Part shown: positions 3,237 through 51,042 of the stretch, piece by piece
How the letters are laid out: the number at the start of each line of letters is the position of its first letter
Numbering within the stretch: position 1 is the first letter of the stretch
Translations under genes and position numbers: made by a program
The notes under the pieces: model-generated
Told to the model about the DNA's origin: nothing
The model's input: only the letters and a program-made list of their open reading frames with translations
Database searches by the model: none
DNA from: Chrysophaeum taylorii
Taxonomy: Eukaryota > Sar > Pelagophyceae > Pelagomonadales > Pelagomonadaceae
NCBI GenBank assembly: GCA_029834535.1
Contig: JAQMWT010000049.1
Span: 1 to 59,825, forward strand
Direction: 5' to 3'
Length of the DNA: 59,825 nucleotides

Positions 3237-5169
3237 GAGTACGCGTATTTAACAGCGGAATCTGTACGTGACGAATGGTGGTGTCGGAGATTCGCAAATA
3301 CTGCTCAAAGGATCGATCTGTCGGGCTCGACGCGGTCGGCAGGACTTCGCCACTTTGGCGGAAACCTCTGGTCACGGAGTTGTGCAGATCGACTGCGAAA
3401 ATCGCAAGAGTGTCTGGAGGGACGACAGACGCTAAATGTTTGAACGAATCTGTCTTAGACAAGCTAGCCCAATCATGGTCCACCGGCATCGTGAGCAACT
3501 CGGCCGTCATCTCGAGAGTCAAAGGCTGAGTGTCCGAGCGATGCGGTCCCAAACGAAGAGGAACTCGCGCAACGGTGTAAGCCGTATCTGTTGCTTCTCG
3601 GGAGCCAAGATTATTCAGCTGGAGCAGGTGGCGTTCATGAGCATAACCTAAAGCTGCAGCAAATTTTTGTTGCATGTTCACACATGTCTTCGGAGCCTCT
3701 TGCAAGTGCAGTGGGTGACTGGAAACCAACAATCGCACGCGAGAGCTCATCAGAGTGGGCGTGATATCATGTAAATTGACGACGTACACGTAAGGGTGTA
3801 AGCGCGCTATATAAGAAATGATGGACGCCTCCTGTTCAATCAGCCACATCATGAAGCCAGCCATTATGCACAGCTTCATCGTCCAGTTAGTGGCCGTAAC
3901 ACCCCTGCCAACATCTCTGGATGTCAAGTTGCAGAGTGCTGAATGAACGCAGGGTGGAGACGCTATACACATCGACGATGACCATTCCGCTTCAGGCAAA
4001 TACGCCTTGATCAATCGGAGGGTCGAGCCATATCGTCCGCAGAGCGTGTGCTGAACCACAGGTATCTTTGGAAAATTCTTCTGATGAACCTTGTTGGCAG
4101 CTGTTGAAGAGTCAAGAGCAAGGACGACTCGAAACGACGTCCCGCACAACTCGTTCGCTCGTTGCAGTCCTAAAGTACTTCCTCCGGCGCCGCTAAAGAG
4201 CATCACAACCTTGCGATACGTGATCGGCACCCAATGGACCTTTTCAAACCTTCGGCGAATCTCGCCTTCTGTAACTTCTTGGCATTTCTTTTCCTCCTCG
4301 TCAGTTCGTCGGTCGAAATCGTCGTTACCGAGCGATTCTTGACGAGAATTCTTCTTCTTATCGGCAGAAGGAGACGCCTTCTGCACCGAGCTCAAAAGCA
4401 TCGGTTCGGGAGCCGCATCGCCTTGAGTCAGATGGCTTGCGACCGAAACAGTGAATGATAGGTTAGCCTTGTTAGATTCGGCTTCACCATCCTTCGTTAA
4501 ATCGTCGACCGTCTCAGCATTCAGCTCGTCATCAAAACGAACAATATCGCCCAAAGCAAGGACTTCACCTTGAGTAATCACGGTCGGCACATCCTGGGTA
4601 GAGGATATCGCCACTCGAGCTGCGAACTTATCATGATCCTCAGGAGAAGAACACATTCCATCGACTACCCCGAGTTGCTCGTACCCAGAGGACGTAGCAA
4701 CGAAAACTTGCCCGGTTTCCATGGGCTCTGAAAGAGCGACTGGCACGCAGTAGGTGCGCCCAGGCTCGACCTTCATCGTGCGCGCAGCATAGGCTATCAC
4801 TTCATAGGCATCGCTGTTCGAACTTTGAGAAGGCGTAACTGGAGGGACTCCCCAAGTCGTCGAAGCTCCCGCTCGTTTCGGCGGTGGACGCTGGAGGTCT
4901 TCAATCTTGCACAAGCGAGCGTAGACTCGGCTCTCAACTGTGCTCAGGCTCTTTTGCATCGCATGGTGCTGTTGCCCATAAACCTGAACTACCACGGGAT
5001 TGCGCTCGTCATAAGTTGTTCTGAACGTCAAAATCGGAGAATCGACTCGTCGATCCTGCACCTTTAACTTCTTGCGCCCATAAGCGACTTGTGTGCGGAG
5101 AAACGCAATGCGATTTCGCGGGTAGTCCACTATGGCTCCCAACACCCGAATATCGCGTGCTCCCAGCAA
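3079..5169 (-). CDS. protease end plus C5-cytosine methyltransferase domain, copy A
   Basis: A 696-codon frame. It opens with the last part of the protease (RDIRVLGAIVDYP), then a linker of about 300 residues, then a full set of C5-MTase motifs in the right order and spacing: motif I LFSGAGGSTLGL (residue about 323), motif II ALDSSTAANKVHQKNFP, motif IV with the catalytic Cys as ASPPCVHSALCN (about 401), motif VI position as LIEQEAS (about 443), motif VIII MSSRVRLLVS (about 474), motif IX LTLEMTAELLTMP (about 552) and motif X ASVVPPDT (about 582). The family methylates cytosine C5 in DNA. Odd residues: V instead of Q after PPC, and EQE instead of ENV. This stretch has no internal stop. The carboxyl end after 3120 is out of frame because of the indel shared with the RT frame. 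Confidence 0.9.
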   Translation of the reverse strand: MLGARDIRVLGAIVDYPRNRIAFLRTQVAYGRKKLKVQDRRVDSPILTFRTTYDERNPVVVQVYGQQHHAMQKSLSTVESRVYARLCKIEDLQRPPPKRAGASTTWGVPPVTPSQSSNSDAYEVIAYAARTMKVEPGRTYCVPVALSEPMETGQVFVATSSGYEQLGVVDGMCSSPEDHDKFAARVAISSTQDVPTVITQGEVLALGDIVRFDDELNAETVDDLTKDGEAESNKANLSFTVSVASHLTQGDAAPEPMLLSSVQKASPSADKKKNSRQESLGNDDFDRRTDEEEKKCQEVTEGEIRRRFEKVHWVPITYRKVVMLFSGAGGSTLGLQRANELCGTSFRVVLALDSSTAANKVHQKNFPKIPVVQHTLCGRYGSTLRLIKAYLPEAEWSSSMCIASPPCVHSALCNLTSRDVGRGVTATNWTMKLCIMAGFMMWLIEQEASIISYIARLHPYVYVVNLHDITPTLMSSRVRLLVSSHPLHLQEAPKTCVNMQQKFAAALGYAHERHLLQLNNLGSREATDTAYTVARVPLRLGPHRSDTQPLTLEMTAELLTMPVDHDWASLSKTDSFKHLASVVPPDTLAIFAVDLHNSVTRGFRQSGEVLPTASSPTDRSFEQYLRISDTTIRHVQIPLLNTRTRVVKWVSKDDLQDPTTREPPEVPMLPLPTDAPGTAHAFSAAPDNQSGRSAGS

Positions 5170-12786: not shown

Positions 12787-13478
12787 TGTGGCGTAAGGAG
12801 AATTTAGGCCTACCTGGCGTGCCTTCGAATCCTGGCTCGCCGCTCGCGTCCGTGCCCTTGATGGAGTCACTGGACGAGGATGGCCGTTCTCCCCCCACAC
12901 TAACTAACTAACTTCAGACCTCTCCCGAGCATGGGAGCCAGGCCGGACCGACAGGAGCCAGTCCGGAATCACGGGCCTGTAGACGAGGGGCGCCGAAAGG
13001 TGGGTCGGCGGAGAGTGATCATCAGGCTGGTCGCCATGCGACGAGGAGACCGCGATGTGACTGACAACCAACTCGTCGATAACCTTCCGTCTGCGCCCCG
13101 CGGCCATACCCCGTCCCACTGCGAACGTTCCGGCTGCCAACCGGCCCGCCCGGGAGGCGAATAGGTGCCAACCTACGCCGGGAGGGCGGATGCCCTCGCA
13201 AGGCTCAGGATTCATGAGGCACCGTCCTCCATCGCAACCATGCGGTTGGCGTTCAGGGTAAGGGACTCCCCCCACACAACCTCAAACAACTTCCGTGCCT
13301 GGTCCTCACAACTTGAGGATCGGCTGTTGCTTTATGATTAAGAACACTTGAATCACAGAAATCAAGGAAGATGATGTCATAGAGAAAACGGACATCATCA
13401 GAACGGAGTACGGTGCCCCTGATAATGGGGGGGCCCTAGAAGAGGGGTAAGCCTTAGGTGGCGGGAGTTGCCGCCACA
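12787..13478 (-). repeat. 3' LTR of element C, containing a SINE
   Basis: Starts (minus strand) TGTGGCGGCAACTCCC at 13478 and ends CTTACGCCACA at 12787. Without the SINE and its target duplication it is about 315 bp and pairs with the 5' LTR, differing at roughly 20 sites (about 6 percent, counted by eye). Confidence 0.93.
12901..13265 (-). mobile_element. SINE copy 1 (full length)
   Basis: Tail (GTTA)n at 12901, head at 13265. Flanked by ctccccccacac at 12889-12900 and 13266-13277. The 5' LTR of the same element has the uninterrupted site ctcccgccacac at 23755-23766, so this SINE inserted after element C. A 77-codon frame on one strand and a frame of about 100 codons on the other recur in other young copies and are not counted as genes. 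Confidence 0.93.
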
Positions 13479-16215: not shown

Positions 16216-19200
16216 TTATGGGGTCAAAATGTGTCCCAGAAATTCAATATCATCCTTGAGAAGGTGGAACGTCGCGATTCGACCGCTGTACCCTCTCTGT
16301 GCCAAATGACACATCACTGCGATCGAAACTTGCAAATGTCGATGAAGATCGTCAGATCCCATCATAATATCGTCAACAAACGCAACCAGGTCTCGATATA
16401 TCCATTGCGAAAGGTCGCTCGCCATTTGCTTGCTGAAAAGAGCTCCGGCCGTCTTCACACCTAGAGGTAATCGCAAGAAAGTATGAGCACCAAGTGGGCT
16501 AACCATCGTGACAGCGTCTTGCGCTGTCGGATCCAGACGAAGGTTGTGGTATCCCCATCTAATATCAATGCATGTCCGCCATCGTCGCATGGCGAGAAAA
16601 GCTAAAGCATCATCTTGTCGAATGTTCGGCCAACTGTCATTGACCAATTGATCGTTGAGCTGACGTAAGTCAACTGCAGCACGGAACGCGTTTGACGTTC
16701 CAATCTCAGCTCCTTTCTTCGGAAGCATCAACACAGGAAAGCCCCAAGGTGAGTTGGCCGGACGAATGACTCCATCCCGGCACCACTCGCTGATCTGCTT
16801 GCGGAGACAATCGAGCTTCGCAGGCGTCAATCGGTAGGGCGTCATCTTAATCGGTCGCGGATTCGCGTCTTTGAATCGTAGAGACACAGGAGGCGAGTCC
16901 ACAGGTCTCATAATCGGGTCGAAAAAGGCCCAAGAATATTGCACACAGTGACGGAGCATCAGTTTCGCCTCGTCATCTAAGTGCGGATTGTCAGGAATTC
17001 CTAACTCCTGAACAACCTTGTCAACTTCTTCCTTCGTAGGAATTTGAACTTTCATTGCTTCGTTGTCCTTGACATGCTCAGGAGTTTGCGGCAGCGGTGC
17101 ACCCTCAGCATCGCGCGGCGCATCTTTCCATGGCACATCGAACTTCTTCTCATATTTTAGTCTCACTTCCGGGTGGCTTTTGTTGATCCTCTCGCCTTTG
17201 ACACGAACGCTCGGCTCGCTCTTAATCTTCGGTTCCCGATCTCGCTCAGGATCTGGCGGAACGTCCAAATTTGGTTGTCGGGGGGGCCCAGCAGAAGAAG
17301 CATGAGACGTCCCCGGCTCATCTGTTGCAGGCGGAATCAACGGTACCTCTGGAGGTTTCCATTTGGTGCGATCTTGGAGATCATCAGTCGACACCCATCT
17401 TACGACACGTGTGCGCGTGTTTAACAGCGGAACTTGTACGTGACGAAGGGTGGTTTCATCAATTTGCAAATAATAATCAAACGGTCGGTCTGCAGGACTC
17501 AACGCCGACGGCAAAGCTTCGCCGCTCAGGTGAAAATCCTTGGTCACAGAGTTGTGCAGATCGAGTACTAATAAAGTCATCGTGTCTGGTGGCACGACGG
17601 ACGCCAAGTGTTTCAACGAGGTCGTCCTGGAGAAGCCGGCCCAATCAAAATCAAGGGGCATTGTCAGCAACTCCGAAGTCATTTTCAGATTCAAAGATCT
17701 GTAATCGGAACGGTGCGGTCCTACGCGAAGCGGGACACGCGTAACGGTATAAGCTGCGTCTGTCGCGGCTCGTGATGATCCTAAATTGTTCATCTGAAGT
17801 AAATGTCGTTCGTCGGCGTAGCCAAGCGCAGCGGCGAACTCTTGTTGCATATTCTTGCAAGTCTTTGGAACTGCGCGCAAATGGAGCGGATGGCTGGAAA
17901 CCAACAATCGCACGCGACAGCTCATCAAACTGGGCGTTATGTCGTAAAAATTGACGACGTACACGTAAGGGTGCAAACGTGCAACGTAAGAAATAATCGA
18001 AGCCTCCTGCTCTATCAACCACATGAAGAAACCAGCCATCTTGCATAATTTCATCGTCCAGTGGGTAGCGGTGACTCCCTTCCCAACATCTCTGGAAGTC
18101 AAGTTGCACAGAGCGGAGTGTACGCAGGGTGGCGACGCGACACACATCGACGACGACCATTCCGCGTAGGGTAAATAAGATTCGATCAACCGTAAGGTTG
18201 TAACATAGCGACCACACAGTGTGTGCTGCACCACAGGAATATTCGGAAAGTTCTTGTGGTGGATCTGGTTGGCGGTATCCGACGCATCGAGTGCTAGCAC
18301 GACTCGAAACGACGTTCCACACATTTCGTTGGCTCGTTGGAGACCTAAGGTGCTGCCTCCGGCTCCACTGAACAGCATCACCACCTTGCGATAAGTGATT
18401 GGAAGCCATTGAACCTTTTCGTATCGGCGGCGGATCTCCGCTTCGGTGATCTCGCGGCATTTCTTTTCATCTTCTTCTGACCTTCGAGCAAAATCGTCGT
18501 TGCCTTCGGGTCGTTTGACGGTGGACTTGTCCGCAACAGCGGTCGCAGCGTCCTTCTGCGCTGTGCTCAGCAGCATCGGCGGGGGAGATTCGTCGCAGTG
18601 CGTCAAGTGACTAGCGACAGGAACGGTGAAAGAAAGGTCCCCCTTGTCGTATCCTTCTTCGCATTCTTTCGTAAGTTCGTTGATCGTAGAAACGTTCAAC
18701 TCATCTTCGTACCTAACGATATCGCCAATCGCAAGGACTTCGCCTTGAGTGACGACCGTCGGCACTTCTTCCGCGGCAGTAACCGCAACCCGAGCAGCGG
18801 ACCGGTCGTGCTCTTCGCAAGAAGAACACATTCCTTCGACAACTCCCAACTGCTCGTTCTCAGCAAACGTAGCGACGAAAACCTGTCCCATTTCCATAGG
18901 TTTCGACAAAATAACCGGTAGATTGTAAGTTCGACCGGGCTCGATTTGAAGCGTGCGCGCAGCGTAAGCCACTACTCCTCGCGCGTCTTCTCCCGGAGCC
19001 GGGGAGAATTTGGTCGTAGCATGTCCCCGCGTAGCCAAGGCTACCGTACGTTCCGGCGGCGGGCTTCGGAGATCTTTAATCGTGCTCAAACGAGCGTAAA
19101 CTCGAGTCTTGACCAGGTCGAGACTCTTCCGAAAGGCATCGTGTTGATGATTGTAAATCGGCACGGTTATCGGATCTCGATCGTAAATAGATCGAAAGGT

Positions 19201-21798
19201 CACGATTGGTGCATCGATTCGTTCATCCTTGAACTTAATCTTCTTGCGCCCGTAGACGACTTGGGTTCGATAAAAACAGATCCGATCGTGGGGGTAGTCC
19301 ACGACGGCTCCTAAAACTCGTATATCGCGCCCTCCCAACAGGAACAGATAGTTCGTATCGGCCACAATAGCGACAATGGGGGCGGCGATGTTGTCGGCGA
19401 GGGCGACCCGAATCGCGATCCAACGAAAGATCGTCGTCGTATTCAACCCTGATCCGTACAGCTTGCGCTTAATCGGAAGTTCGCCTTCATCGAAAATCAG
19501 CTTTCTGACCATTTCTCGGCAAATATAAGAAACATCCGCCATTCCATCGACACCGATGGTCGTCGAGAATTTCGGTCCGTCACGATTCCTGTAGATGTGA
19601 CAGGCCATAAACGTAAGAGTACCCGTATCTAAACAACTGAGGGTAACCAAATCATCTTCGATCGTCTTGCCATCTCGCGGCGTCAACGAAGTGTGAGCAC
19701 ATCGGGCTCTGACTCGCTCATCTCCGGGGTTGGGCATCGATACCGCGGCTTGAGCTCTCGTATCATCTGTTGTTGGCGTCATCGACGTAATGCTCGCGGC
19801 AGCCTCTTTATCTGGCGGCTTCCGCTCTTCCTCCAAGACAATCTCAGAGGGAATCAGTGCTGGTAGGGGATCCCGATCTTCGCTATTCTCGGAAGCAAAG
19901 GACCTCTCCCATAACTCATTCATTTCGTCTTTCCAGAACGCATCCGTAGATTCATTCGTCGTTGGTTGATCATCACCATCATCGGCGATCGGTTCCGTGT
20001 CGGCTGCGGCTTCGAGTCCGTAGCTGAGCGGTTGTTCTGGTGGCTTCTTTAGCAAGAAGTTCCGAGTTCTCGTCCACCAATCCTGCAGGTTCCACGTCGG
20101 CTCGTCTTCGTCCCAATCCAGAACGCTGCTAATCTTCTTCTTAAGTCTATCCTTTTCTTCCGGCGGCGTATCCGTGGCTCGATCCGTAGTAACCGAAACC
20201 GTTTCGGGGGGGTCCGCAGGAAAAGATGGCGTCGTCCCCGACGTCAACTCTATCGTAAGATCGTCGTCTGCATCACTCGCGATGGTCATCGTCTCGTCCG
20301 TCGAATGATCGCACGAGCTATCACTGCAGAAATCCATGTCTGGCTCACAGCCAGTTCGGTTGCCAAAGGTCGTCTCTGGAAGGTCCAAAGATAAGCCAAT
20401 AGCGTCGAGGGCTTCCTCGTCAAAAAATAACGGTGCGTCGTCCGTGGACGACTCGTCAAGTAACGTTATCGCGGACACTGGTTCACAAGGTGTAACTTCT
20501 TCATCTTCCGAATCTGAATCGCCTTCCCAGTACCGTGGAGCTTCGAGTTCATCGCTCGAATCGTCGAGTTCATCGCTCGACCTCTCCTCGTAAATCTGTG
20601 CCAAAGACCGACGATTGGTCAGCACGTCGTGGGGTGGCTCGTCCATCAGCGGGCGAGCAAGATCGTCGAATGCGGCCGCGGCAAGGGTGTCGGCTGCGTC
20701 GTCGGTGCGGGTGTCCGTGTGCGGGTACACCATCACTCCTAATGGTAATTGTTGACCGCAAGGGGTCGTAAACGCGAATGTTGCAGACGAATGTCCCGAG
20801 TCTTCCCGGTAACGGCCATCGTCCGAATTTCGATCGCGAGATCTTCGTTGCCGGCGGCGGCGTGAATGTCTGCTAGAGCTCCGGCTGTCTTTCCGCCGGC
20901 GCTGGCGCGAGCTGCTACGGCTCTTGTCGCGGCGTCGGGGGCTCCGGCTATCTCGACGGCCCGATCGTGTCGAAGACGATCGGCCGTGTCCATCTTTCAA
21001 TTGCTTCACGGAATCCATAACCGTGGTCAGCTGCGTGCCCAAATCATTGAGTCTGCTCTGAATATCGTGAGCAGCGCTCGAACCGAGGGTGGCATTAGAA
21101 CTGCCGTCGTCACGCGAATGATTATCTCTCTTTTGTCGGCTCTCCCATCGTCCTCGCGAAATGGGCTTTTTGCCGTCTTCGATGTATTTACACATCGCCA
21201 CATAATAGTCTTCTGGTTCGCGGTTGCAAATGACCCGGTTCCCGTGTTCATCCTTGTCGTGAGTCGTTAAGAAAAACCCACAATCCTTGCATGTCCTCTC
21301 GAGCCACTTGTTCGGGTTTTCTTTGAGGCGCAATGCTTCATATTTCGTCGTTTTGTCTTTTGTTCCCGAGACGAGCGCCCGTCCTCCGCGTCCAAACGGT
21401 GGCTTCTGCGGCTTCCCGCCCGAGGGGCTCGTTGAATTTCGGCTGTTCTTCTCCGCCATGGCTGTCGCGAAATCGTTCTCGAGCCGTGTAATCAATGACA
21501 ACGTAGACGTAAGCGTCTTATACGTCGTCGGGTGTCCGCTGCGCATCGTTCGCACGCGGGATTTCAATTCGCTGGACTCCAGTCCACGTATCAAGTAAGA
21601 AATGATCTCCACATCGTTGAGATCTCGGTTGGCCACAGAACAGTACGCCATGGCCTCTTGCTGAAATTTAATACAATACGAATGCACGTGGCGTTCCCCG
21701 GAGCGTTTCGGGACAGTCGCTTGGGTCGTGCATTGCAATTTTCGTAGCGATTCCTCGGCCGTCACCGGCAGTGGGCAACTCTCTCTGAAATATTTCAA
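16216..21798 (-). CDS. Gag (C-terminal part)-protease-MTase-RT polyprotein, element C
   Basis: 1860 codons. Residues 1-180 continue the Gag capsid-like helices and a Cys/His segment (CKDCGFFLTTHDKDEHGN); about 265-330 is an RS-rich stretch; about 370-690 is acidic. The protease is at about 710-840, with GVDGMADVSYI (Asp about 750) and RDIRVLGAVVDYP. The C5-MTase is at about 1135-1410: I LFSGAGGSTLGL, IV ASPPCVHSALCN (Cys about 1220), VI position LIEQEAS, VIII MSCRVRLLVS, IX LNLKMTSELLTMP, X ASVVPPDT. RT runs from about 1480 to the end with CIDIRWGYHN, LPLGVKTAGA and FVDDIMM (about 1808). A TAA after HILTP stops it inside RT where copy B has Glu. Gag, MTase and Pol share one frame with no frameshift site. 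Confidence 0.93.
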   Translation of the reverse strand: MKYFRESCPLPVTAEESLRKLQCTTQATVPKRSGERHVHSYCIKFQQEAMAYCSVANRDLNDVEIISYLIRGLESSELKSRVRTMRSGHPTTYKTLTSTLSLITRLENDFATAMAEKNSRNSTSPSGGKPQKPPFGRGGRALVSGTKDKTTKYEALRLKENPNKWLERTCKDCGFFLTTHDKDEHGNRVICNREPEDYYVAMCKYIEDGKKPISRGRWESRQKRDNHSRDDGSSNATLGSSAAHDIQSRLNDLGTQLTTVMDSVKQLKDGHGRSSSTRSGRRDSRSPRRRDKSRSSSRQRRRKDSRSSSRHSRRRRQRRSRDRNSDDGRYREDSGHSSATFAFTTPCGQQLPLGVMVYPHTDTRTDDAADTLAAAAFDDLARPLMDEPPHDVLTNRRSLAQIYEERSSDELDDSSDELEAPRYWEGDSDSEDEEVTPCEPVSAITLLDESSTDDAPLFFDEEALDAIGLSLDLPETTFGNRTGCEPDMDFCSDSSCDHSTDETMTIASDADDDLTIELTSGTTPSFPADPPETVSVTTDRATDTPPEEKDRLKKKISSVLDWDEDEPTWNLQDWWTRTRNFLLKKPPEQPLSYGLEAAADTEPIADDGDDQPTTNESTDAFWKDEMNELWERSFASENSEDRDPLPALIPSEIVLEEERKPPDKEAAASITSMTPTTDDTRAQAAVSMPNPGDERVRARCAHTSLTPRDGKTIEDDLVTLSCLDTGTLTFMACHIYRNRDGPKFSTTIGVDGMADVSYICREMVRKLIFDEGELPIKRKLYGSGLNTTTIFRWIAIRVALADNIAAPIVAIVADTNYLFLLGGRDIRVLGAVVDYPHDRICFYRTQVVYGRKKIKFKDERIDAPIVTFRSIYDRDPITVPIYNHQHDAFRKSLDLVKTRVYARLSTIKDLRSPPPERTVALATRGHATTKFSPAPGEDARGVVAYAARTLQIEPGRTYNLPVILSKPMEMGQVFVATFAENEQLGVVEGMCSSCEEHDRSAARVAVTAAEEVPTVVTQGEVLAIGDIVRYEDELNVSTINELTKECEEGYDKGDLSFTVPVASHLTHCDESPPPMLLSTAQKDAATAVADKSTVKRPEGNDDFARRSEEDEKKCREITEAEIRRRYEKVQWLPITYRKVVMLFSGAGGSTLGLQRANEMCGTSFRVVLALDASDTANQIHHKNFPNIPVVQHTLCGRYVTTLRLIESYLPYAEWSSSMCVASPPCVHSALCNLTSRDVGKGVTATHWTMKLCKMAGFFMWLIEQEASIISYVARLHPYVYVVNFYDITPSLMSCRVRLLVSSHPLHLRAVPKTCKNMQQEFAAALGYADERHLLQMNNLGSSRAATDAAYTVTRVPLRVGPHRSDYRSLNLKMTSELLTMPLDFDWAGFSRTTSLKHLASVVPPDTMTLLVLDLHNSVTKDFHLSGEALPSALSPADRPFDYYLQIDETTLRHVQVPLLNTRTRVVRWVSTDDLQDRTKWKPPEVPLIPPATDEPGTSHASSAGPPRQPNLDVPPDPERDREPKIKSEPSVRVKGERINKSHPEVRLKYEKKFDVPWKDAPRDAEGAPLPQTPEHVKDNEAMKVQIPTKEEVDKVVQELGIPDNPHLDDEAKLMLRHCVQYSWAFFDPIMRPVDSPPVSLRFKDANPRPIKMTPYRLTPAKLDCLRKQISEWCRDGVIRPANSPWGFPVLMLPKKGAEIGTSNAFRAAVDLRQLNDQLVNDSWPNIRQDDALAFLAMRRWRTCIDIRWGYHNLRLDPTAQDAVTMVSPLGAHTFLRLPLGVKTAGALFSKQMASDLSQWIYRDLVAFVDDIMMGSDDLHRHLQVSIAVMCHLAQRGYSGRIATFHLLKDDIEFLGHILTP

Positions 21799-21823
21799 AA
21801 TCTGGAGGCAATACTTCTCGTTC

Positions 21824-22187
21824 TAACTAACTAACTAACTTCAGACCTCTCCCGAGCATGGGAGCCAGGCCGGACCGACAGGAGCCAGTCCGGAATCACG
21901 GGCCTGTAGACGAGGAGCGCCGAAAGGTCGGTCGGCGGAGAGTGATCATCAAGCTTGTCGCCATGCGACGAGGAGACCGCGATGTGACTGACAACCAACT
22001 CGTCGATAACCGTCCGTCTGCGCCCCCCGGCCATACCCCGTCCCACTGCGAACGTTCCGGCTGCCAACCGGCCCGCCCGGAAGGCGAATAGGTGCCAACC
22101 TACGCCGGGAGGGCGGATGCCTTCGCAAGGCTCTGGATTCATGAGGCACCGTCCTCCATCGCAAAACCGCAGTCGGCGATCAGGGTA
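21824..22187 (-). mobile_element. SINE copy 2 (full length, inside gag of element C)
   Basis: Flanked by acttctcgttc at 21813-21823 and 22188-22198. The insertion plus duplication adds 375 bp, a multiple of three. Removing it joins the Gag halves in frame at a site (LNEK then YC) that aligns with the uninterrupted Gag of element E. Confidence 0.93.
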
Positions 22188-22314
22188 ACTTCTCGTTCAA
22201 TCGTCGTAATCGTCGTACCACTGAACCGTACTCCTCATCGTCGATATCCCGACGTAAATAAAAAGACGCTGGTTGATCGAGATTTTTACACAGGTCTTCG
22301 TACTTCTTTGAGTG

Positions 22315-24174: not shown

Positions 24175-25134
24175 CTAACTTTTTTTTCCCAACCAAAGCC
24201 CTGCCGCGCCGGCCCTAATCGAAAAAAAAGGGACCGTCAAGAATCCCAAGCGAAAGTTAGAGATGCCCTCTATTTCGTCTTGAGACGGGTGTTCTGTCGT
24301 TTTATAGGAATGTAACCGGAGAAACAGCATGGTTAACGTTTCAAGCTCGGTTACAGTTAGGCGAACGGACCCCGTGCGACTGAAGGTGCTGTAAGTTTTA
24401 GGTATGGAAACAAATGGTACATCAGAGAAGACTTGTGTCCATGGTTCATCGACAATTAACTTTCGACTTATGGTATTAGCGTGATCCGCAATGTCCAGGA
24501 AGGAAGTAACTCTCTTGTTAGGCCAAGAAAGCAAGTCTAGCGGGCCGGTGTTATACTTGCGGGCAACGAGGATCCACCTTTCCCGTGCTTGGTAGTCTCC
24601 ACACAAGTAACAGGGAAAGCGATCGCATATATCCACTGTGTAATGCATTGTAGAGAAGATCAGATTGGCAACTCGTATATGATCTTCATAGGATGCCGAG
24701 TGTGGTGGTGACATCTCCATATAACGAACAAGGGGCTTTAAAAGTTTGAGTACACTTAGGGCACTTTGGAACAAGGAGTCATCCATATCTCGCTCGAAAG
24801 TTGATATAGATCACCCGTTGAATATGCTGCGATTAGTACATGGGGAAGTCAATTCCACAATATCAGAGTAGTATCGAGCACGTTATGCGTCTGATGCGCG
24901 GTGCAGATAGGCTAAAAACTTTGGATGGGACGGAAACACTTCAATAGAGTTGCCAAACCGTCTTCGAAGCATATGCGTAAGATTTTCATCGCTCTCAACA
25001 ATAACTATAACGTTGATGTTGATTCGCAAGTCATTGGAGGCGCAAGCCAAGAATGCAGGAGTAGACAACCCGGAGCAAAGTAGTGTTACAGTGGGTACGC
25101 GTGAGCTAGAGTTGGATGTTATGGTATGAAGCAA
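24175..25134 (-). pseudogene. C5-cytosine methyltransferase domain, copia-type element
   Basis: One frame, broken by TAA at 24883 and TGA near 24813, carries MTase motifs in order: motif I VTLLCSGLSTPAFLA (about 25090-25045), a motif II-like VIVESDENLTHML, motif IV with the catalytic Cys TSPCTNRS (24849-24835), motif VI position YMEMSPP (about 24720), motif VIII YQARERWILVAR (about 24595) and motif IX SVRLTVTELETL (about 24350). Motif X is not clear. The domain is very different from the gypsy-type MTase, so it is probably a separate acquisition. Upstream it is in frame with the protease once the stop at 25152 is read through. It cannot be active in this copy. Confidence 0.75.
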
Positions 25135-25275
25135 ACTTGGGTTAAACTTGCGTCATACAGGGGGTGAGAAATGCTTGCGAACATAAGGCAACTGTGAATG
25201 CATGGACTCCAAAATGGTTTTAAGCCACGGGACGTAGATTGCACGTTCTAGTAGTTTGGAGTAGAGTTTTAGCAT

Positions 25276-25639
25276 GCCCTTACCCTGATCGCCGACCGCA
25301 TGGTTGCTATGGAGGACGGTGCCTCATGAATCCTGAGCCTTGCGAGGGCATCCGCCCTCCCGGCGTAGGTTGGCACCTATTCGCCGCTCGGGCGGGCCGG
25401 TTGGCAGCCGGAACGTTCGCAGTGGGACGGGGTATGGCCGGGGGGCGAAGACGGAAGGTTATCGACGAGTTGGTTGTCAGTCACATCGCGGTCTCCTCGT
25501 CGCATGGCGACAAGCTTGATAATCACTCTCCGCCGACCCACCTTTCGGCGCCCCTCGTCTACAGGCCCGTGATTCCGGACTGGCTCCTGTCGGTCCGGCC
25601 TGGCTCCCATGCTCGGGAGAGGTCTGAAGTTAGTTAGTT
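25276..25639 (+). mobile_element. SINE copy 3 (full length)
   Basis: Flanked by agttttagcat (25265-25275) and agttttggcat (25640-25650), one mismatch. It lies between the protease and MTase parts of the copia-type element. Insertion plus duplication is 375 bp, so the frame on the two sides still matches. Confidence 0.9.
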
Positions 25640-25651
25640 AGTTTTGGCATC

Positions 25652-26154
25652 TCACGTTGTTCGTTGAAAGCACTTAATTTAAACTGTAAGGAGCGAAGCT
25701 CCATCTTTCGAGCTTTAGCTTGCTGTAGCGAGTAGATTGGGAGCGTAGGTAAAAGGTTGTTTAACCTAAACAGAGTAATCTTGACGTTGTCATCATTCTT
25801 GCTCTGGATCGTTGACTGTCCTTTAAATTCAACCCCATAAAGATGTATAACAAGTTTGTCTTCTCCCAACTGGGTCATGCTGATGATGTGCAAATCATGA
25901 TCGTTGTGCTGATTCTGCTTAGGTAGGAAAAGTGCAGCATCAACCTTGACGTAGCCAACGTTAGGATGATTTGGGAGAGCGGGAATAACCGTTCTTACTA
26001 TCATTGCGTGGGTAATGCTTTGAGAGTCCGCAGCCGACTGGATGGCGGGCGACAAGGATTCGGGCAATTTAACGATGTGTATTGGGTCAGCATAACGTTT
26101 AAAGTCAACGACATGTTGTGAGGCACATGTATCTGCATACCCAGGTGTAGCCAT
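25652..26154 (-). CDS. copia-type protease region
   Basis: From MATPGYADTCASQHV the protein follows the layout of copia protease and pre-integrase: DTCAS at the DTGAS position (Asp at 26131-26133), a middle VRTVIPALPNHPNVGYV segment and DLHIISMTQLGED, which matches the NLLSV.QL block, then LFRLNNLLPTLPIYS. The third residue of the active triad is Cys (TGT) instead of Gly (GGT), a one-base difference that would inactivate the enzyme. Upstream codons after an in-frame TAA (26163) belong to the same frame. The frame crosses the SINE into the MTase linker. Confidence 0.7.
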
Positions 26155-26162
26155 TAATGGTA

Positions 26163-26500
26163 AGTTTTACTCATTATACAACTTCAGCATGGTTGCGTAA
26201 CACGCATGTGTAGAGCTTTGACCAAAGACATACTGCGTCATGAAGCTTTGTGTTTGTTCGGAAGGTACAACAACGAGTGTAAAACCATTATCTAATTTTG
26301 GGAGCATCCTAGGGGGCTCTGTGCCATTCTCGTTCTCTCCGTCATGTTGATTATTGGAAATATCAGAGTTATGAGGAGCTTCCCGTGCTTGACGACGAAC
26401 GATATCATTCTGTGCTTTAGCGTTTATGTGCTGCAGTAATGGTTGAGGAATATTGTCGATTTCTTCATCTTTGATAGAAAGAAAGGTATTGCAGAGTATT
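26163..26500 (-). pseudogene. Gag/protease linker, copia-type element
   Basis: An open stretch without a usable start reads IKDEEIDNIPQPLLQHINAK, then an acidic Asn-rich part and MLPKLDNGFTLVVVPSEQ, ending with a TAA eleven codons before the protease frame begins. It looks like the end of Gag or the Gag-Pol linker. Confidence 0.5.
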
Positions 26501-26926
26501 CCGCTATGCAGTAGTTAGATTACTGAGAGACCATCCCGTCTCACCGCGTGAGTCTGGCAATCTGGTAGGTTTCAGGGAACCCAGGCTGTGGTCCCCCTAG
26601 CCTCTTCACACGATAGACGATACATAGCAACACAGCAGGGTAACTTGTAATTACTACGTACCTGCGGGACGCGCTAGACCATGATGATGAGCGTGAGCAC
26701 AGATCAGAGGACTATTTGACTGTGTAGAAAGGAAGAAGAAGGGTAAGGAAGAGATCGCGTTCTCGACGGACGGAACAAGGGTAGGAGTTAGCAGATTTCT
26801 CTGCACCCCCTCGAGATGTCTTGTTGTTGAGGAGCATGACATCGCTAGAGAAATGTTATGGAGGACGAGATCAGGATGAACAAGAAGTGCATTTCCGAGG
26901 TCACGTAAAGTGGCACAAAATGTTCA
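26501..26926. other. decayed part of the copia-type element, no clear frame
   Basis: Stops in all frames of the minus strand; no motif recognised. It lies between the Gag frame ending at 26927 and the Gag/protease linker. Confidence 0.4.
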
Positions 26927-29945: not shown

Positions 29946-32107
29946 ATGGTCACCCCCCCTCCTGCTGTTCAAAACGCTCTCGAACATGAACCGAACCCAC
30001 CTCCTGTCGTCCACCCCTCCGGATGTCAAACACCCCACAGCAAAGTCTCGGACCCCACTGCCTTCCCTCCGGACCCAGGCATAGCCAAGGTTACTCCACA
30101 ACCTATCCTTACCCTGATCGCCGACCGCGTGGTTGCGATGGAGGACGGTGCCTCGTGAATCCTGAGCCTTGCGAGGGCATCCGCCCTCCCGGCGTAGGTT
30201 GGCACCTATTCGCCTCCCGGGCGGGCCGGTTGGCAGCCGGAACGTTCGCAGTGGGACGGGGTATGGCCGGGGGGCGCAGACGGAAGGTTATCGACGAGTT
30301 GGTTGTCAGTCACATCGCGGTCTCCTCGTCGCATGGCGACAAGCTTGATGATCACTCTCCGCCGACCCACCTTTCGGCGCCCCTCGTCTACAGGCCCGTG
30401 ATTCCGGACTGGCTCCTGTCGGTCCGGCCTGGCTCCCACGCTCGGGTGAGGTCTGAAGTTAGTTAGTTAGTTACTCCACAACCTGGCACACCCCACATTC
30501 ACGAGGACACTCCACCTTGTTCGAATATCGCACTAGCAATGTTGAACACTCCACCACCACTCAACAATAATATCTTCACTCCACCAACCCCACCGGAGCC
30601 TCCACCTCCTTCACTGGAGCCTAACTCCCCACTATCGGCGACTCCCACTTCACCATCTATTCAAGTTCCACAACATCCTCGTCAACCCCTTCGCCGCAAC
30701 ACTCATCCCCTTCCTGAAGATCATGCCACCTACGGCCATGACGGCCCCGGCACCGTCACCCCTGGCCAAGCCCCCACCGCGGCTCAAACTCCTGCCACCC
30801 CACCGTCGGACTCTCTTGTCCGATATCCGTCATCTTCCGCAAGTCACTCTCCTCCGGACTTTCATCTCCATCCACAAGACCATGCCACCTACGGCCGCGA
30901 CGGCCCCGGCACTTCCATTCCTACCCCAGCTCCTTCCGCGGCTCATGCTCCTGCTGCCCAACCATCGGACCATCCTGACCGACCTTCATCACCTTTCGAA
31001 AGTCGCAGTTTACCCGATTTTCATCTCCACCCGCGTGACTACGCACTCCACGACTACGACCATTCCTCCGTCTCCAAACCAAGCAGGAACTCATCTCCTT
31101 TATCGAAGTTCCAATGCACCTCCGTCTGCGCTCCAACGCGAGTTGGCCACCACTAAGGCTGCATTCCACTCCCAAACCACAGACTTGGCCGCAACCAAGA
31201 CCATGCTCATTCGCAAGGACGACGCTTTGTCCTCCACAGCCGCCAAACTCACCATAACCGACGCCGCCCTAGCTTTCGCCACTGCCCAGCTCGCCATCCA
31301 AGCCGACGAACTAGTCTCCACCCGCGCGGAACTCCATCTCACCCACATCCAGTTCAAGGCACTCGAAACTGCCCACGCTGACATCCGCAACTCCCACTTT
31401 GAAACCAACGCCGTCCTCCACACCATTCTTACCTCCTTGGATGCCACCCACGCACCCAATATGCTGCATCGCATCTTTCACCTCCTTTCCCCATCAAAAA
31501 CCAACCTTCATCCCCTTCCGAACCAACCTCCAATGCCTCTCCCCCGATTCTCCCCGAGTATTATCACCACCTCCACGGATGCCCTGGACCCGGTTCTCCT
31601 GGTTCACCACCCACTCCGCCTATCTGTTCTCAACCCCCCGCCATCTCTGGCCCCTCCTCCTCTGCCAACTCACTCTTCGCCTCTCTGGCACCCCCCGAAC
31701 CCCTCTGCACCCGCTCGCCTTCTCGGCCATCTGATTCATCCCAACTCGACCACATCCCCGCGTCCGAGTTGCGAGGGCGTACATCCAACACCGGCGACCG
31801 TACCCCTACCACCAGCGACGATCACTACGTGCAAAGTCCCACCAAGAAACAAGACCACCAACATCAAGAGTCGACAAATTCCGAACTATACAAAGACCGC
31901 TCTTTGCCTGATGGTCATGCTCACCATCATGCTGCCAAAACATGCACAAGGGCTTCTTCTCTCTTCGGGCACAACGGCCCAGGAAGCAGTCTTGTCGAAG
32001 GAACACCAAGCCACCTCGTTCCCGCTTTCGACAAGTCAAAGAACAAGACACCTCGAGATGTTCCCGAGTATTATGCCGACTATGGCAACCACACTCAAGG
32101 ACCCTAG
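29946..32107 (+). pseudogene. Gag-like proline-rich coiled-coil protein, F1
   Basis: Starts in VTPPPAVQNALEHEPNPPP, is split by SINE 4 at 30105-30469, and resumes at 30485 (PGTPHIHEDTPP). Three repeats of about 50 residues carry HATYGHDGPGT-like cores and Pro-rich ends, then a coiled coil (RELATTKAAFHSQTTDLAAT, ALAFATAQLAIQADELVST), then a Pro/Ser tail that passes through ASELRGRTSNTG at about 31763 into DDHYVQSPTKKQDHQHQES and VPEYYADYGNH. Several one-base shifts move the best frame (30539-31156, 30723-32222, 31769-32107). It resembles a Gag in layout only. Confidence 0.6.
30105..30469 (+). mobile_element. SINE copy 4 (full length) with empty site in F2
   Basis: Flanked by gttactccacaacct at 30090-30104 and 30470-30484. 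The paralogous F2 copy has the single uninterrupted site gttactccacaacct at 52597-52611. This is the cleanest demonstration that the repeat is a mobile unit with a target duplication of about 15 bp. Confidence 0.97.
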
Positions 32108-32230
32108 GCTCCGCCGTACTCTATGCCCCAGGCACAAGAGCCGCAGGCCACTGACAACAGCCCCTCAGACTCAGCCCCCTGATATGATGCATACAGCAAA
32201 GAAGCAAGACCCACTTCACTAGTCTCGAAG

Positions 32231-32677
32231 ATGGTCTCCTCGACCATTCCAGATCAGTCGCCTGATCCAAGCACCATCAATGGCCCCGCAATGCCGTATC
32301 CACAAGGACAAGACACGCTGTCGACGGTCCCACGGTCAACATACTCGCAGGTACTCACCGCACCTGCAGGTATCAGCTCAGGTTCACCAGGCACTCCCGC
32401 CTTTTTCGATGTCTCTCGATCAGCAGCTCCCGATCACTTCAATTTTGTTCCGCCTCGCCGCCTCCTCTCCCCGAAGACAGGCGCTCACTGCCGCTCACCG
32501 GCGCTCGCTGCTGCACCCACCATCCACCTTCTCGGTCGGATGCACTGGATGACACTGCTCAGCAGGTTGCATGGACCCATCTGCGATCACCATGTCACGA
32601 TTCGATTGATGTCTTCGCACGATCACCAGCCGCAGCACGTGATCACCAGCTCCCCAACTCTCAGTAAGAGGATGTAA
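32231..32677 (+). pseudogene. F body, Ser/Pro-rich frame, F1
   Basis: Frame starting MVSSTIPDQSPDPSTINGPA, similar to the middle of the F2 frame 53873-54658, separated from the preceding frame by stops near 32107. Unrecognised. Confidence 0.45.
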
Positions 32678-32736
32678 TCCTCCCGGCTGCCGATCCTTAT
32701 GTCTCACCGCGACCAAGCTTCTGGAAAGCCTTTCCC

Positions 32737-34476
32737 GTGGCTGCAGCAATAGACAAAGAATTCGAGAGTTCTGAACGGCCCGATCAACCGCAAACTATGC
32801 ACGATTCCATTGCGACCACTTCGGTCCTTTATGTCCCCTTGCATAGCTCTCTTCTGGACGCCACACGCTTGCGCTGCCTCCGGAAAATCGATGTCGCGCT
32901 CTCAGGAGACATTCTCCGCGCACTATGCACAGACTCGCTCCACCTGGACCGCTTCTGTCAGCACTTTCGCATCACTGGAACGTACGACAAACGTTCCACA
33001 CCAGGCGCCGGCTCCACCACAATCATGCACCCAAGTCACGCACGTTGCCTCCCTCAAAAGCGCATTGTCGCTTGGCACGTAACTCCTCTTTCGAGGACGC
33101 ATGTCACATGCCCGCACCTCCGAATACCTTACACGCCTATGTGCAACCCTGGTCACTACGGCACTCACTGCTCTGGTCCCCGCATCTCCGCTATCGAGGA
33201 TGCACCCAGCAGGACTGACCCTTTCATCGCCCTTGGTACTACTGCACTCTCCTTCCGCGATCCCCCCTTTCGATTTCCCGCACTGGACCCCAAGCATTCC
33301 AGGCCGGATACTCTCCACCACGGGATCTCAGCTCACGCGCCCATCTGCCCTACCTTGCAGACAGGTCAGCCGCGAGCCACACCCCTTTTGGCACTGACTT
33401 CGGACCACCCGCATCACGCGCTTTTGCTCTTGGAGCATGACACGCTTTTCGATGCTCTCCGCGTCACCGCCTCTAACACCAAGACACTCGTCATTTCCAC
33501 CGACGCTCCGCGCCGCAACGTATCTCACGACCTTCAGATCACCAACATAAGTCGCTCGCGCCCGCACCACGTCGCGCACGCCTTACGAGGGCGTATTTCA
33601 ATTGGTGACCTCACAGGTCTTTCGATGCATTTTCCGACGTCCGACTTTGAACTTACGAGTCACTTTATGGCAATCCCCAATGCCAAGACGTCTGAAGCTG
33701 CGCAATCATGTCTCTGGAACTCCAAAGCCACAGAAACTGCCAGACAAGAAAGCACTCAGCTCTCCACAGCTGCTCAACAGCTACTTGTAGTCTCGCACAT
33801 AGCAACGAGTACTATCTCGCAGTCTCTATTGGACGACAAGACGAAAGATAAGACCACAACGGCCAGCTACACCAGCCAGCCCATTGATGTAGCAGACGAG
33901 ACAATGCAAACCAACTGCACAGCACGGTTCCAGACTATGCAGACGATGCTCAGGTCCAACGCTCAATTACTCGACCACGCACACGTTCTGTCACCTGACC
34001 TTGCACTGCTACTGGCTCCTGTCTCATTCATAGCTGATGCACCCCATCCGATGGACCAATCCTTAAGATATATCCCGCTCGCAGAAGCACCACCGCAGGA
34101 CACACAGGTACATCATGAAGATACAGGTAAGCGCACCACGATCGCGCGCACAGGCTCATTGCGCCTATCTGATCACGACGAAACGAAGCTACAGCTCTGC
34201 TTGATCCCTTCGCCTCTTGAAGACAAAGGCCGCCTTTCAGCCTCCCAGGCACCTGATCCGCCCCTGTCGCTGCAATCCGCATTAGCACAGACGATCTCGC
34301 CTCCCTGCACGACTGCAGGTCAGGCACAAGCCAATGCCAGCATTCACCAGAGTTTTGCGCACCGGCTGGAATCCTACCAGCACGGCTACCTCAGCCAGTC
34401 AGGTCACTGCACCACCTCGGTCTCCCCTGACACCAGGTCGACGTATCGCTCATTCGCGACACCTCCAGTCGTCTAA
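32737..34476 (+). CDS. long unrecognised F-family protein, F1
   Basis: 579 codons without a stop, opening MAAAIDKEFESSERPDQPQT. It includes TSVLYVPLHSSLLDATRLRC, HFRITGTYDKRST, HDTLFDALRVTASNTKTLVI and, at about residue 282, HALRGRISIGDLTG. It is Ser/Thr/His/Pro-rich with no transmembrane segment or catalytic motif that I recognise. F2 carries the same protein split over 54788-55198, 55205-56167 and 56298-56567 by small indels, so F1 preserves the ancestral frame here. The stop overlaps the next start (TAATG). Confidence 0.65.
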   Translation: MAAAIDKEFESSERPDQPQTMHDSIATTSVLYVPLHSSLLDATRLRCLRKIDVALSGDILRALCTDSLHLDRFCQHFRITGTYDKRSTPGAGSTTIMHPSHARCLPQKRIVAWHVTPLSRTHVTCPHLRIPYTPMCNPGHYGTHCSGPRISAIEDAPSRTDPFIALGTTALSFRDPPFRFPALDPKHSRPDTLHHGISAHAPICPTLQTGQPRATPLLALTSDHPHHALLLLEHDTLFDALRVTASNTKTLVISTDAPRRNVSHDLQITNISRSRPHHVAHALRGRISIGDLTGLSMHFPTSDFELTSHFMAIPNAKTSEAAQSCLWNSKATETARQESTQLSTAAQQLLVVSHIATSTISQSLLDDKTKDKTTTASYTSQPIDVADETMQTNCTARFQTMQTMLRSNAQLLDHAHVLSPDLALLLAPVSFIADAPHPMDQSLRYIPLAEAPPQDTQVHHEDTGKRTTIARTGSLRLSDHDETKLQLCLIPSPLEDKGRLSASQAPDPPLSLQSALAQTISPPCTTAGQAQANASIHQSFAHRLESYQHGYLSQSGHCTTSVSPDTRSTYRSFATPPVV

Positions 34477-34478
34477 TG
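34474..34478 (+). promoter_or_regulatory. TAATG stop-start overlap, F1
   Basis: The TAA of the 579-codon frame and the ATG of the next frame (MDDYDLELEL) share an A. The same five bases join the same two frames in F2 at 56565-56569. UAAUG is known from termination-reinitiation in influenza B and some retroelements; the function here is inferred. Confidence 0.6.
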
Positions 34479-36806
34479 GATGACTATGATCTCGAGCTTG
34501 AACTCATCGCAACGCTTGAGTCATACCCAAGAAGGAACCCTAATTTGGAGTCACCTCAACCACTCCCACAGGAACTTTGGCCACCAGACGCCACGCATGT
34601 GCTCGTGGTTTCTCCATTGGTATCCTCCAGAGCGTTTGACCGCAGCAGATACAATATGCAATCTCCCCATGCGACTATAACCGCATTCTCGTTTGGGACA
34701 CAAGCATTTCCTTAATGTCAGTTGTTTACGCTCATAGTACCGCGACACACGGCAACCAAGATAGAAGTGGACTGCGTTCCACCCTTATCTCTGAGCGCTA
34801 CCCCCGACATGCTGCTCCCGGCACTACTAGCCAGTCCCATCACGTCTGATTCAGCTCCCATCGCTTTGTATGACGTCATATGGCATATTCCGATTACAGC
34901 TCAGACACCGCACAGGCTCCTATGCACTCGCGACGGCACGCTCACCGCCCCTCTCGGTTTAGACAACGAGCATCGCGCCATCCCCATGGTACACTCACAG
35001 TCAACCGAGATGCACGCTCGCTTGTCGCACAGTACGATGCCCGAACACCTTTTGATTCAGGATAAGCAGAACACTGTCGTCTCAGCCACCGCCGACGCGC
35101 CCCCTCCGACCGCCGCCCGGCTCTGCGCTCGTTCCGCAACCACGGTCTCTCCGCCTCACCAGCAGTTCAAAGATCAAGCTCAGTTCGAATTACGAGGGCG
35201 CATTAGTTTTCCACCGACGACAAGATTCGTTTCGATTCGCATCAGTCATGCCTCCTATGGCTACTCTGGCTACATCGGAGCTCACTTCAAGGCACGTACC
35301 GAAGTGCCTCTTTCTAAGGACCTCGGTCATACGCAAAGACCTGATGAGCATTCGTCGTTCCTCCCCGCTTCAACGCGACTCCCGACGACCAAATCCCCGA
35401 CGATTTGTGATGACACTAAGTTCCGTCATCAATGCAATTCAGAGCCTCCCACGCTCTTCCGTCAGTCTCTTGCAGGTCACACCTCTCAAGTTTCAGCTCG
35501 CTCGATTTTATCCTGCATGCTGCCATATGCAAACGAAGTTCTGTCACGCCAAAGCCACACGTCGCAGTTATCGCCAGTCTCGCGCAATAAATGCCCGCCA
35601 CCAAATGATAGCCGCACGCAGAGTCCTTTGCTCACCTCTCTTCACGTCCCTCCCAGCACTATGCTTGACGTTGAAGCTCTGCACCACTATGGTTCGGTTA
35701 CAACACAACTTCACGCGAAATCCTCGCCCAGTTCTGATCATGTTTCGCATCTGTCGACATTACTGTCAGAATCCTGCTTCGGACACAGCTCAGACTGCAC
35801 TCGCGTATTACGCTCTTATGACGCACCCGGTTCGCTCCTCTCCGTTCACACTGCAGGTTCCATCTTGCAGAACTCTGAGCCCAACAGCCGCCATTGCGAT
35901 TCGCACCCAGTCGACACTTTCCGTAGCACCCGCGAGGATAACCCCCAATCTCCACAGGTTGGACACGTGCTCTGCCGCACACCGCTAGCCCCACCCATTT
36001 GTGTTACGAATCAAGGGAGATTAACTGCCTTGCCTATCTACTTCCTCATTCCCACACACTCGCTGCTAGCCACAGTCTCGCATGACTCATTGTCGGACAG
36101 TTCTCGCATTATGGACATTACCTCACATCATGTTCATTCTTCGGACATCCCCCGTCCACAGATTAATCCTCTCTTGAAACATACGCTCCCTACACGTTGT
36201 ATACTGTACAGCTCTCGCATATCGACAACACCCTCCTGTCGAATGTCTCCCCTTTCAGTCACTGCACGATTCACCAGGGATGCACCACGCTCCCTCGCGT
36301 TTGTACATCAAGGGAAGTTTGATTCTGGTGAAAACGACTCCGGACATGAAATGAATACTGGATCAGTCGATTGTCACAGTTCAGGATTACTTTGTCGAAT
36401 AGAACACGAAAGATGCGACTTTGACCATACCTTCGAAGTCAACTCCCCCTGGCACGGACACTATCTCGAGCAGTCCATCGCTTCAGGCATTTCCTCTGTT
36501 GCCCGACTCTTCTGCATTTTTGCGCACAGGGCACCGACTTCAGCACAGGACACACGCGTATCCACCATCATACGCGATACACTCGCAAACCTCAGTCTCA
36601 GCCCAATCATCTTGATGATAGCCACACGCGACTTACACGAGACTACAACCCCAAGTCTACAGCAAATTTGGAGTTTCCATATTTGCGGCCACCCCAGACA
36701 ACATCGATATCCCATCGCTACGATTATCCGCATATTGGCATTACACGCTCATGGCGCGACCTCAGCATGCACGCTACACTCAGGACGACAGCTTCGACAC
36801 GTGTGA
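34476..36806 (+). pseudogene. second long F-family protein, F1 (one nonsense codon)
   Basis: From MDDYDLELELIATLES the frame continues to about 36806, broken only by TAA at 34713, where F2 has TCA. Recognisable stretches: LWPPDATHVLVVSPLVSS, SDSAPIALYDVIWHIPI, QFELRGRISFPPT (about 35185) and CFGHSSDCTRVLRSYD. It is Ser/Thr/His-rich, about 770 codons, with no known domain. The F2 homologue is split at 57142 by a one-base deletion. Confidence 0.6.
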
Positions 36807-44851: not shown

Positions 44852-45219
44852 TAACTAACTAACTAACTTCAGACCTCTCCCGAGCATGGGAGCCAGGCCG
44901 GACCGACACGAGCCAGTCCGGAATCACGGGCCTGTAGACGAGGAGCGCCGAAAGGTCGGTCGGCGGAGAGTGACCATCAAGCTTGTCGCCATGCGACGAG
45001 GAGACCGCGATGTGACTGACAACCAACTCGTCGATAACCTTCCGTCTTCGCCCCCGGCCATACCCCGTCCCACTGCGAACGTTCCGGCTGCCAACCGGCC
45101 CGCCCGGGAGGCGAATAGGTGCCAACCTACGCCGGGAGGCCGGATGCCCTCGCAAGGCTCAGGATTCATGAGGCACCGTCCTCCATCGCAACCGTAGTCG
45201 GCGATCAGGGTAAGGATAT
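44852..45219 (-). mobile_element. SINE copy 6 (full length)
   Basis: Flanked by ctccctttt (44842-44850) and ctcccttttc (45220-45229), the last C shared with the tail. It splits the protease of element E. Confidence 0.92.
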
Positions 45220-47260: not shown

Positions 47261-47627
47261 TAACTAACTAACTAACTTCAGACCTCTCCCGAGCATGGGA
47301 GCAAGGCCGGACCGACACGAGCCAGCCCGGAATCACGGGCCTGTAGACGAGGAGCGCCGAAAGGTCGGTCGGCGGAGAGTGACCATCAAGCTTGTCGCCA
47401 TGCGACGAGGAGACCGCGATGTGACTGACAACCAACTCGTCGATAACCTTCCGTCTTCGCCCCCCGGCCATACCCCGTCCCACTGCGAACGTTCCGGCTG
47501 CCAACCGGCCCGCCCGGGAGGCGAATAGGTGCCAACCTACGCCGGGAGGCCGGATGCCCTCGCAAGGCTCAGGATTCATGAGGCACCGTCCTCCATCGCA
47601 ATCGCAGTCGGCGATCAGGGTAAGGGT
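47261..47627 (-). mobile_element. SINE copy 8 (full length)
   Basis: Tail (GTTA)n at 47261, head ending GGCGATCAGGGTAAGG near 47627. Only a weak flanking match (GGAT..) is seen, so the right-hand sequence may have been replaced after insertion. Confidence 0.85.
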
Positions 47628-48960: not shown

Positions 48961-48971
48961 TCGGGGGACAA

Positions 48972-51004: not shown

Positions 51005-51042
51005 GAGAACTGGAGTAAAACCTGGATCGTCGAGAACAACCT

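Follow-up and report, generated by a model that had tools for sequence, protein, structure and literature searches.

DNA methylation is ordinarily directed at transposons, and elements that carry a methyltransferase of their own present a paradox of which few cases are known. In the accessible part of PMC5890265, DNA methyltransferases (DNMTs) are described in long interspersed nuclear elements (LINEs), DIRS elements and gypsy elements. Among these, KnitGypsy-Dnmt3 of Klebsormidium nitens is a long terminal repeat (LTR) retrotransposon that occurs in several copies, with a C5-cytosine methyltransferase (C5-MTase) in its Pol frame that is under purifying selection, and SymbioLINE-Dnmt and SymbioDIRS-Dnmt3 stand for the hundreds of C5-MTases that retrotransposons of more than one class carry in the Symbiodinium genome; the same part of the paper gives the copia elements of Symbiodinium as lacking any DNMT domain. 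The available passages of a 2025 paper (PMC12344493) read ‘LTR Copia and DIRS’, citing the 2018 work that reports gypsy, and those of PMC9998398, PMC3145265 and PMC6338049 mention no DNMT-bearing copia element. Our searches of the open-access literature turned up no copia element for which a C5-MTase is clearly described. Iyer et al. (2011) reportedly treated DNMTs that are associated with reverse transcriptase. Here, we describe a locus of the alga Chrysophaeum taylorii, located in a stretch of 59,825 nucleotides (contig JAQMWT010000049.1), the whole of which we refer to as the window. Positions 24235-25152 of its minus strand contain the decayed remnant of an LTR retrotransposon of the copia type, termed family A, whose region between the protease-like part and the integrase is, on sequence comparison, homologous to C5-MTases.

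Family A shares with KnitGypsy-Dnmt3 the LTR type, the C5-MTase in the Pol frame, the presence in several copies and the purifying selection on the MTase, but it is a copia and not a gypsy element, its MTase is not assigned to a DNMT class rather than being a Dnmt3, the region is larger, and a UGA stands before it. The Symbiodinium elements are alike in their numbers within an algal genome and in their spread over more than one class, and differ in being LINE and DIRS elements. When the genome (70.8 Mb in 697 contigs) was searched with a 211-residue piece of the window frame, at least 150 relatives were found (150 of 150 scored matched, being the best 150 of 852 candidates). Family A is a Ty1/copia-kind LTR retrotransposon, because the integrase precedes the copia-type reverse transcriptase (RVT_2) and because LTR pairs, a primer-like site, a purine run and target duplications accompany it. 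In the copy L031, the second open reading frame (ORF2, 1464 residues) holds the MTase region (about 1-590) followed by rve at 778-874 (E 0.011), SH3_retrovirus at 962-996 (9.1e-5) and the start of RVT_2 at 1419 (0.0069), all three under the Pfam cut-offs; RVT_2 resumes in another frame (L031:22-1584) with an E-value of 5.1e-32, far over the cut-off. Three same-orientation LTR pairs (C668, C196 and C453), from the best 40 of 701 candidate LTR matches, flank family A matches and span 12,173, 12,286 and 12,361 bases from first to last matched base, respectively; in the same order, the LTRs (about 401 bp) align over 402, 402 and 404 columns with 99.0, 97.8 and 96.8% identity. The primer-like GGTTATGGGCCCAG, which we take to be the complement of the initiator-tRNA anticodon arm, follows the 5′ LTR, a purine run lies before the 3′ LTR, and 5-bp target duplications were seen by eye at C196 and C453 and, imperfectly, at C668. 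The element is thus laid out as LTR, ORF1 (in the gag position, with a protease-like motif), UGA, MTase region, integrase, reverse transcriptase and LTR. The domain order in L031 and the three LTR pairs therefore support the initial annotation, which proposed that a copia-type element carries a C5-MTase-like domain, and so does the single frame of a second copia family described below. The same genome gave 84 chlorophyll-binding matches, some of them sharing a contig with family A copies (C309 and C317), and the PDB matches of one light-harvesting protein include many fucoxanthin-chlorophyll a/c proteins. These matches indicate a photosynthetic host, probably with a red-type plastid, and speak against Perkinsus; PDB searches with succinate dehydrogenase and the light-harvesting protein likewise suggest an alga whose antennae are of the chlorophyll a/c type.

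The HMM search suggested in the initial annotation stays below thresholds for family A alone, which gave no MTase match in Pfam (PF00145), NCBIfam, PHROGs or PDB, and it succeeds with the second copia family, family B. Since family A does not reach the PF00145 cut-off, we term it MTase-like and related to B. A genome search with PF00145 brought up family B (best 123 of 474 candidates), and a search with the MTase of B gave 89 matches from the best 78 of 772 candidates. The PF00145 cut-off was passed by all four family B proteins given (E 1.1e-9 to 1.1e-7), and in one of the copies (L051) a single frame of 1952 residues contains an IDGGAS protease-like motif (assigned by eye), DNA_methylase over its cut-off (1.1e-7), rve under it (0.0061) and RVT_2 (1.6e-38). 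Between protease and integrase, A and B reach a local alignment score of 224 versus a shuffled mean of 101, with 0 of 400 shuffles as high, and A residues 1-205 against B residues 1-190 stand 5.4 standard deviations out (0/400). The halves of A against the whole of B are weaker, as the score is reached by 2/400 shuffles for residues 1-205 and by 1/400 for residues 206-612; 2/400 also reach the score of A against the genome's own protein L043 (on C634), which we take, by its signature, to be DNMT2-like. By BLASTP, A and B match best over 115 residues of the distal part (E 0.002) rather than in motifs I-VIII. Two hhalign runs of A against B, one of which put motifs IV, VI and VIII in register and the other not, gave no support because the profiles were too uniform (Neff near 1).

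A joint profile of motifs I-VIII (9 A and 9 B rows) found M.HhaI at 2.7e-7, with C5-MTases making up 34 of the 36 chains listed; the corresponding values were 0.0066 and 13 of 13 for a B-only profile and 0.00036 and 12 of 17 for a 344-position A+B profile, and a profile spanning the entire A+B region gave no MTase in PDB. The likeness to M.HhaI and other bacterial C5-MTases, the best matches of the A+B profile, extends over motifs IV to VIII, but M.HhaI is a free-standing bacterial modification enzyme with a compact chain of 327 residues. Because any added sequences alter a profile, a shuffling and sliding control was run on the HhaI fragment, which scores 6.4 bits with A, 21.1 with B and 35.6 with A+B (best decoys, 7.9-8.8). 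Shuffling the A columns reduced the A+B score to a mean of 4.4 bits (maximum 10.5, 25 runs) and sliding A out of register to a mean of 4.3 bits (maximum 11.5, 20 slides). Since either treatment destroys the gain, the residues of A, in the register of B, carry an MTase signal. A further profile control with host DNMTs and gypsy MTases as targets was powerless, as family B itself failed there, and searches of protein databases found no relative of A, of B or of the gypsy MTase discussed below.

The motifs lie on the minus strand in one frame, and their residues were counted by comparing natural copies of family A with each other. Motif I, the putative S-adenosylmethionine (SAM)-binding motif, is TVTLLCSGLSTPAFLA at 25045-25092, with Gly28 in 33/33 copies, and motif IV is ELTSPCTNR at 24829-24855, where Cys105 is kept in 33/33 and Pro104 in 32/33 copies (the Pro is also substituted in L041, which is not among the 33); the Pro-Cys dipeptide, whose absence along with that of a Rossmann fold the initial annotation regarded as decisive against an MTase, is hence conserved. 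The motif VI-like YMEMSPP at 24703-24723 retains its Glu (Glu146, 33/33), but the EN of ENV has become EM (Met147, 33/33), whereas eight of nine family B rows have EN. Motif VIII, GDYQARERWILVAR at 24559-24600 (given also as YQARERWILVAR, within this interval), keeps Arg190 and Arg192 in 33/33 and Glu191 in 32/33 copies. As the 33 copies were selected by their match to residues 115-306, the counts for motifs VI and VIII are biased. In an alignment of five A and four B rows, Asp97 before motif IV, Gly28, Pro104-Cys105, Glu146 and Arg192 are among the columns common to all nine. The proposed motifs I, IV, VI and VIII stand, while the placement of motif IX is uncertain, since two candidates exist. 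SVRLTVTELE (24340-24369), the one originally named, aligns near KLSISENARIC of family B and lies about 70 residues past motif VIII, a distance also seen in compact enzymes; at its motif X, however, no clear GN is present. The other, RIRHYSTRELARANNF ... ANAIP (in family B, HIRYATLNEIAKFG ... ANAVP), lies about 340 residues past motif VIII and has a good motif X. With the motif IX/X patterns that we presume for both placements, the pairs fall near residues 264/315 and 528/563, the second about 260 residues beyond the first, present in longer copies and absent from the window copy. Of the 28-29 copies with letters there, 24-26 retain its residues, which lie outside the stretch by which copies were selected, and a PDB search with this distal part alone was empty. 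We lean slightly towards the distal candidate as the true motif IX, in which case the window copy would have neither IX nor X.

The MTase region of family A is under purifying selection. Over residues 15-590, NG86 dN/dS was 0.06, 0.06, 0.06, 0.07, 0.08, 0.07 and 0.13 in seven pairs, and over residues 15-205 it was 0.03-0.08 in seven pairs; residues 700-798 gave 0.02-0.21. Comparisons with the 77-80% subfamilies (L048-L050) gave 0.03-0.10 in 13 of the 16 cases with computable dS, which is itself near saturation. Among nine young copies, pN/pS was 0.12 in the MTase region versus 0.44 over residues 700-798, the latter value being perhaps inflated by frame-shifted copies in the projection. CpG transitions between young copies amount to 0.093 versus 0.066 elsewhere, a weak difference that is confounded by codon position.

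In 11 of 12 longer stretches, ORF1 ends in UGA and ORF2 opens behind it in the same frame; at L040, the site is shifted by small indels. UGA was present at 44/44 located ORF1/ORF2 junctions, which, with duplicate loci removed, represent 35 distinct copies of the 36 examined, the remaining one being L018 (the same as L040). A 34-base pattern in which the stop triplet was left free matched 205 sites at up to three mismatches (none for the reversed pattern), and all 100 zero-mismatch sites listed, of the 205 in all, had UGA, as do the 77-80% subfamilies. Of 33 copies, 25 have their first ORF2 Met at residue 29, within motif I, and four at residue 61, past it; the exceptions are L003 and L006, with a Met upstream of motif I, and two frame-shifted copies. 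Since the first Met thus falls inside or behind motif I in 29/33 copies, an intact family A MTase would most simply require UGA readthrough. A possible hairpin at the UGA (GUAUGA-C-GCAAG / CUUGC-U-UCAUAC) can be drawn at 25123-25158 (-) and in L002 and L048-L050; its most stable form occurs in the older subfamily (-15 kcal/mol), and many young copies pair imperfectly. Stop codons occur in bypass sites, of which this hairpin is reminiscent. As a conserved structure it was rejected, because covariation failed (90.0% of cells paired versus a shuffled mean of 89.4%, with 100 of 500 shuffles as high).

Our favoured reading, to which we give somewhat better than even chances as a whole, is that of a copia element with an MTase in Pol, a Gag-Pol made by readthrough and methylation of the element's own DNA. 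The main product would be Gag-protease, and occasional UGA readthrough would yield a packaged Gag-Pol with MTase, integrase and reverse transcriptase. The MTase may then methylate cytosines of the element's own cDNA or fresh insertion (less likely RNA), whereby the element could come to resemble host DNA that is already silenced, its cDNA could be protected, or its own expression could be damped so that the host survives. Family B would follow the same scheme, but without a stop between the protease-like motif and the MTase. Such elements would permit a direct test of whether they methylate their own copies.

The strongest competitor to this reading, possible although clearly less probable, is that the family A domain descends from an MTase but has lost some or all of its catalysis and is retained for binding of SAM or nucleic acid or for the structure of Pol, so that only family B methylates. 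The EM of motif VI in every copy of A, the failure of A alone to pass profile thresholds and the ambiguity of motifs IX and X are what such a domain would be expected to show, but the Cys of motif IV, the Glu of motif VI and the Arg residues of motif VIII are invariant (with the selection bias mentioned above), and the low dN/dS over residues 15-205 likewise speaks against it. It is rather improbable that the enzyme acts on element RNA or on a tRNA, the copia primer being a tRNA, although A does resemble the DNMT2-like host protein and the site behind the 5′ LTR looks like what we take to be an initiator-tRNA primer site. DNMT2 and DNMT6 of this superfamily are tied to RNA modification in the available part of PMC12344493, whereas published retrotransposon DNMTs are able to methylate CG in DNA de novo, according to the accessible part of PMC5890265. 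We regard it as very improbable that an unrelated linker, lying between protease and integrase, matches the motif string by chance. The empty searches with A alone and the lack of database relatives of A or B would fit such a linker; the PF00145 match of family B, the A-B shuffles, the A+B profile match to M.HhaI and, above all, the shuffling and sliding controls argue against it.

The window also contains a gypsy open reading frame (16216-21822) with an MTase upstream of the reverse transcriptase (PF00145 E 2.7e-4; 20.9 bits versus a cut-off of 22). Like family A, this MTase belongs to an LTR-type Pol frame of the same genome and precedes the reverse transcriptase; it differs in that PF00145 recognises it weakly but directly, and no sequence similarity between the two was detected. 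Two such gypsy-type domains, 17368-18447 and 3193-4272 (-), are 79% identical to each other and contain LFSGAGG, SPPC and RVRLLVSS. The statement that the copia domain shares almost no residues with the gypsy one was borne out, as neither BLASTP nor shuffling gave a significant alignment: the A-gypsy and B-gypsy scores were reached by 43/400 and 77/400 shuffles, nothing beyond generic motifs, and the top BLASTP stretches, of 31 residues (E 0.042) and 38 residues (E 0.15), did not match up the motifs. Since recent sisters would show in such comparisons, a recent-sister relation between the copia and gypsy MTases is excluded. The shuffle test has little power for distant kin, as the host MTases L043 and L044, compared with each other, do no better (205/400), and the repeated capture proposed in the initial annotation is accordingly not demonstrated as a separate origin. 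Separate captures by copia and gypsy elements are the simplest and likelier account; that both descend from one old capture, passed between elements and diverged beyond recognition, we consider unlikely, since the similarity is confined to generic motifs by this low-power test, although in both types the MTase precedes the reverse transcriptase within the Pol frame, which would suit it. Two deeply diverged copia families beside a gypsy element, all within one small genome, would give capture the appearance of a recurrent and useful event.

Against L043, the score was reached by 9/400 shuffles for the gypsy MTase and by 97/400 for B, and against L044 by 73, 66 and 51 of 400 for A, B and gypsy, respectively. 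DNMT5 is a maintenance enzyme. L044 (C621) joins PF00145 to a partial SNF2 domain (2-76 of its 290 positions) in one frame of 2086 residues, which is the layout of DNMT5 in the accessible part of PMC12344493, and the host thus likely has a DNMT5-like maintenance methylase. Given this, it becomes testable, though in our judgement doubtful, that de novo cytosine methylation here is largely supplied by retrotransposons (A, B and gypsy, with A dosed by readthrough), the marks on new insertions being kept by the host DNMT5-type enzyme.

As to the window copy itself, blastn and tblastn against longer relatives place it at 24235-26822 on the minus strand, with both element ends absent. The C5-MTase-like fragment (24235-25152) corresponds to ORF2 residues 1-306 (92% tblastn identity to L031) and is interrupted by two in-frame stops, TAA at 24883-24885 and TGA at 24811-24813. 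The nearest relatives belong to the older subfamily, with 90.6% DNA identity to L031 over 1041 bases versus 81.0% to L033 over 1016. Overall, the initially reported set of five motifs in one minus-strand frame at 24175-25152 is confirmed by the coordinates, the at least 150 relatives, the selection, the kept residues and the profile tests. Of the interval first given (24175-25134), the part from 24235 onward holds, whereas the 60 bases at 24175-24234 are foreign to the element, since similarity to other copies stops at about 24235. The frame was also said to continue from a protease; the same frame does hold the protease-like ADTCASQHV (26107-26136) upstream, but it is broken by the TGA at 25153-25155 (-), the conserved UGA shared with other copies, and by an insertion of about 365 bp. 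The end of ORF1 lies at 25639-26487 (-; tblastn 84% to L036 ORF1), the protease being assigned by eye and the Pfam search of this stretch giving no match, and the most 5′ element match, with the 5′ end itself absent, is at 26630-26822 (-; blastn to L031). The insertion, at about 25276-25643 (strand not assigned), was recognised from a repeat search of the window and from the gap in the element match. This repeat, with TAAC runs at one end, recurs at 12899-13263, 21825-22188, 25280-25643, 30107-30471, 44852-45153, 47262-47601 and 48671-48972, and at least once it sits inside another element. At 49334-51735 (-), the window holds the integrase-to-reverse transcriptase part of family B (86-96% to L051 residues 1151-1952), and no MTase part was found there; as this piece adds to family A and gypsy, the window contains pieces of three MTase-bearing element families. 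Finally, two long direct copies, 30695-36271 and 52801-58397, about 22.1 kb apart and 90-99% identical, form a large duplicated or repeated block.
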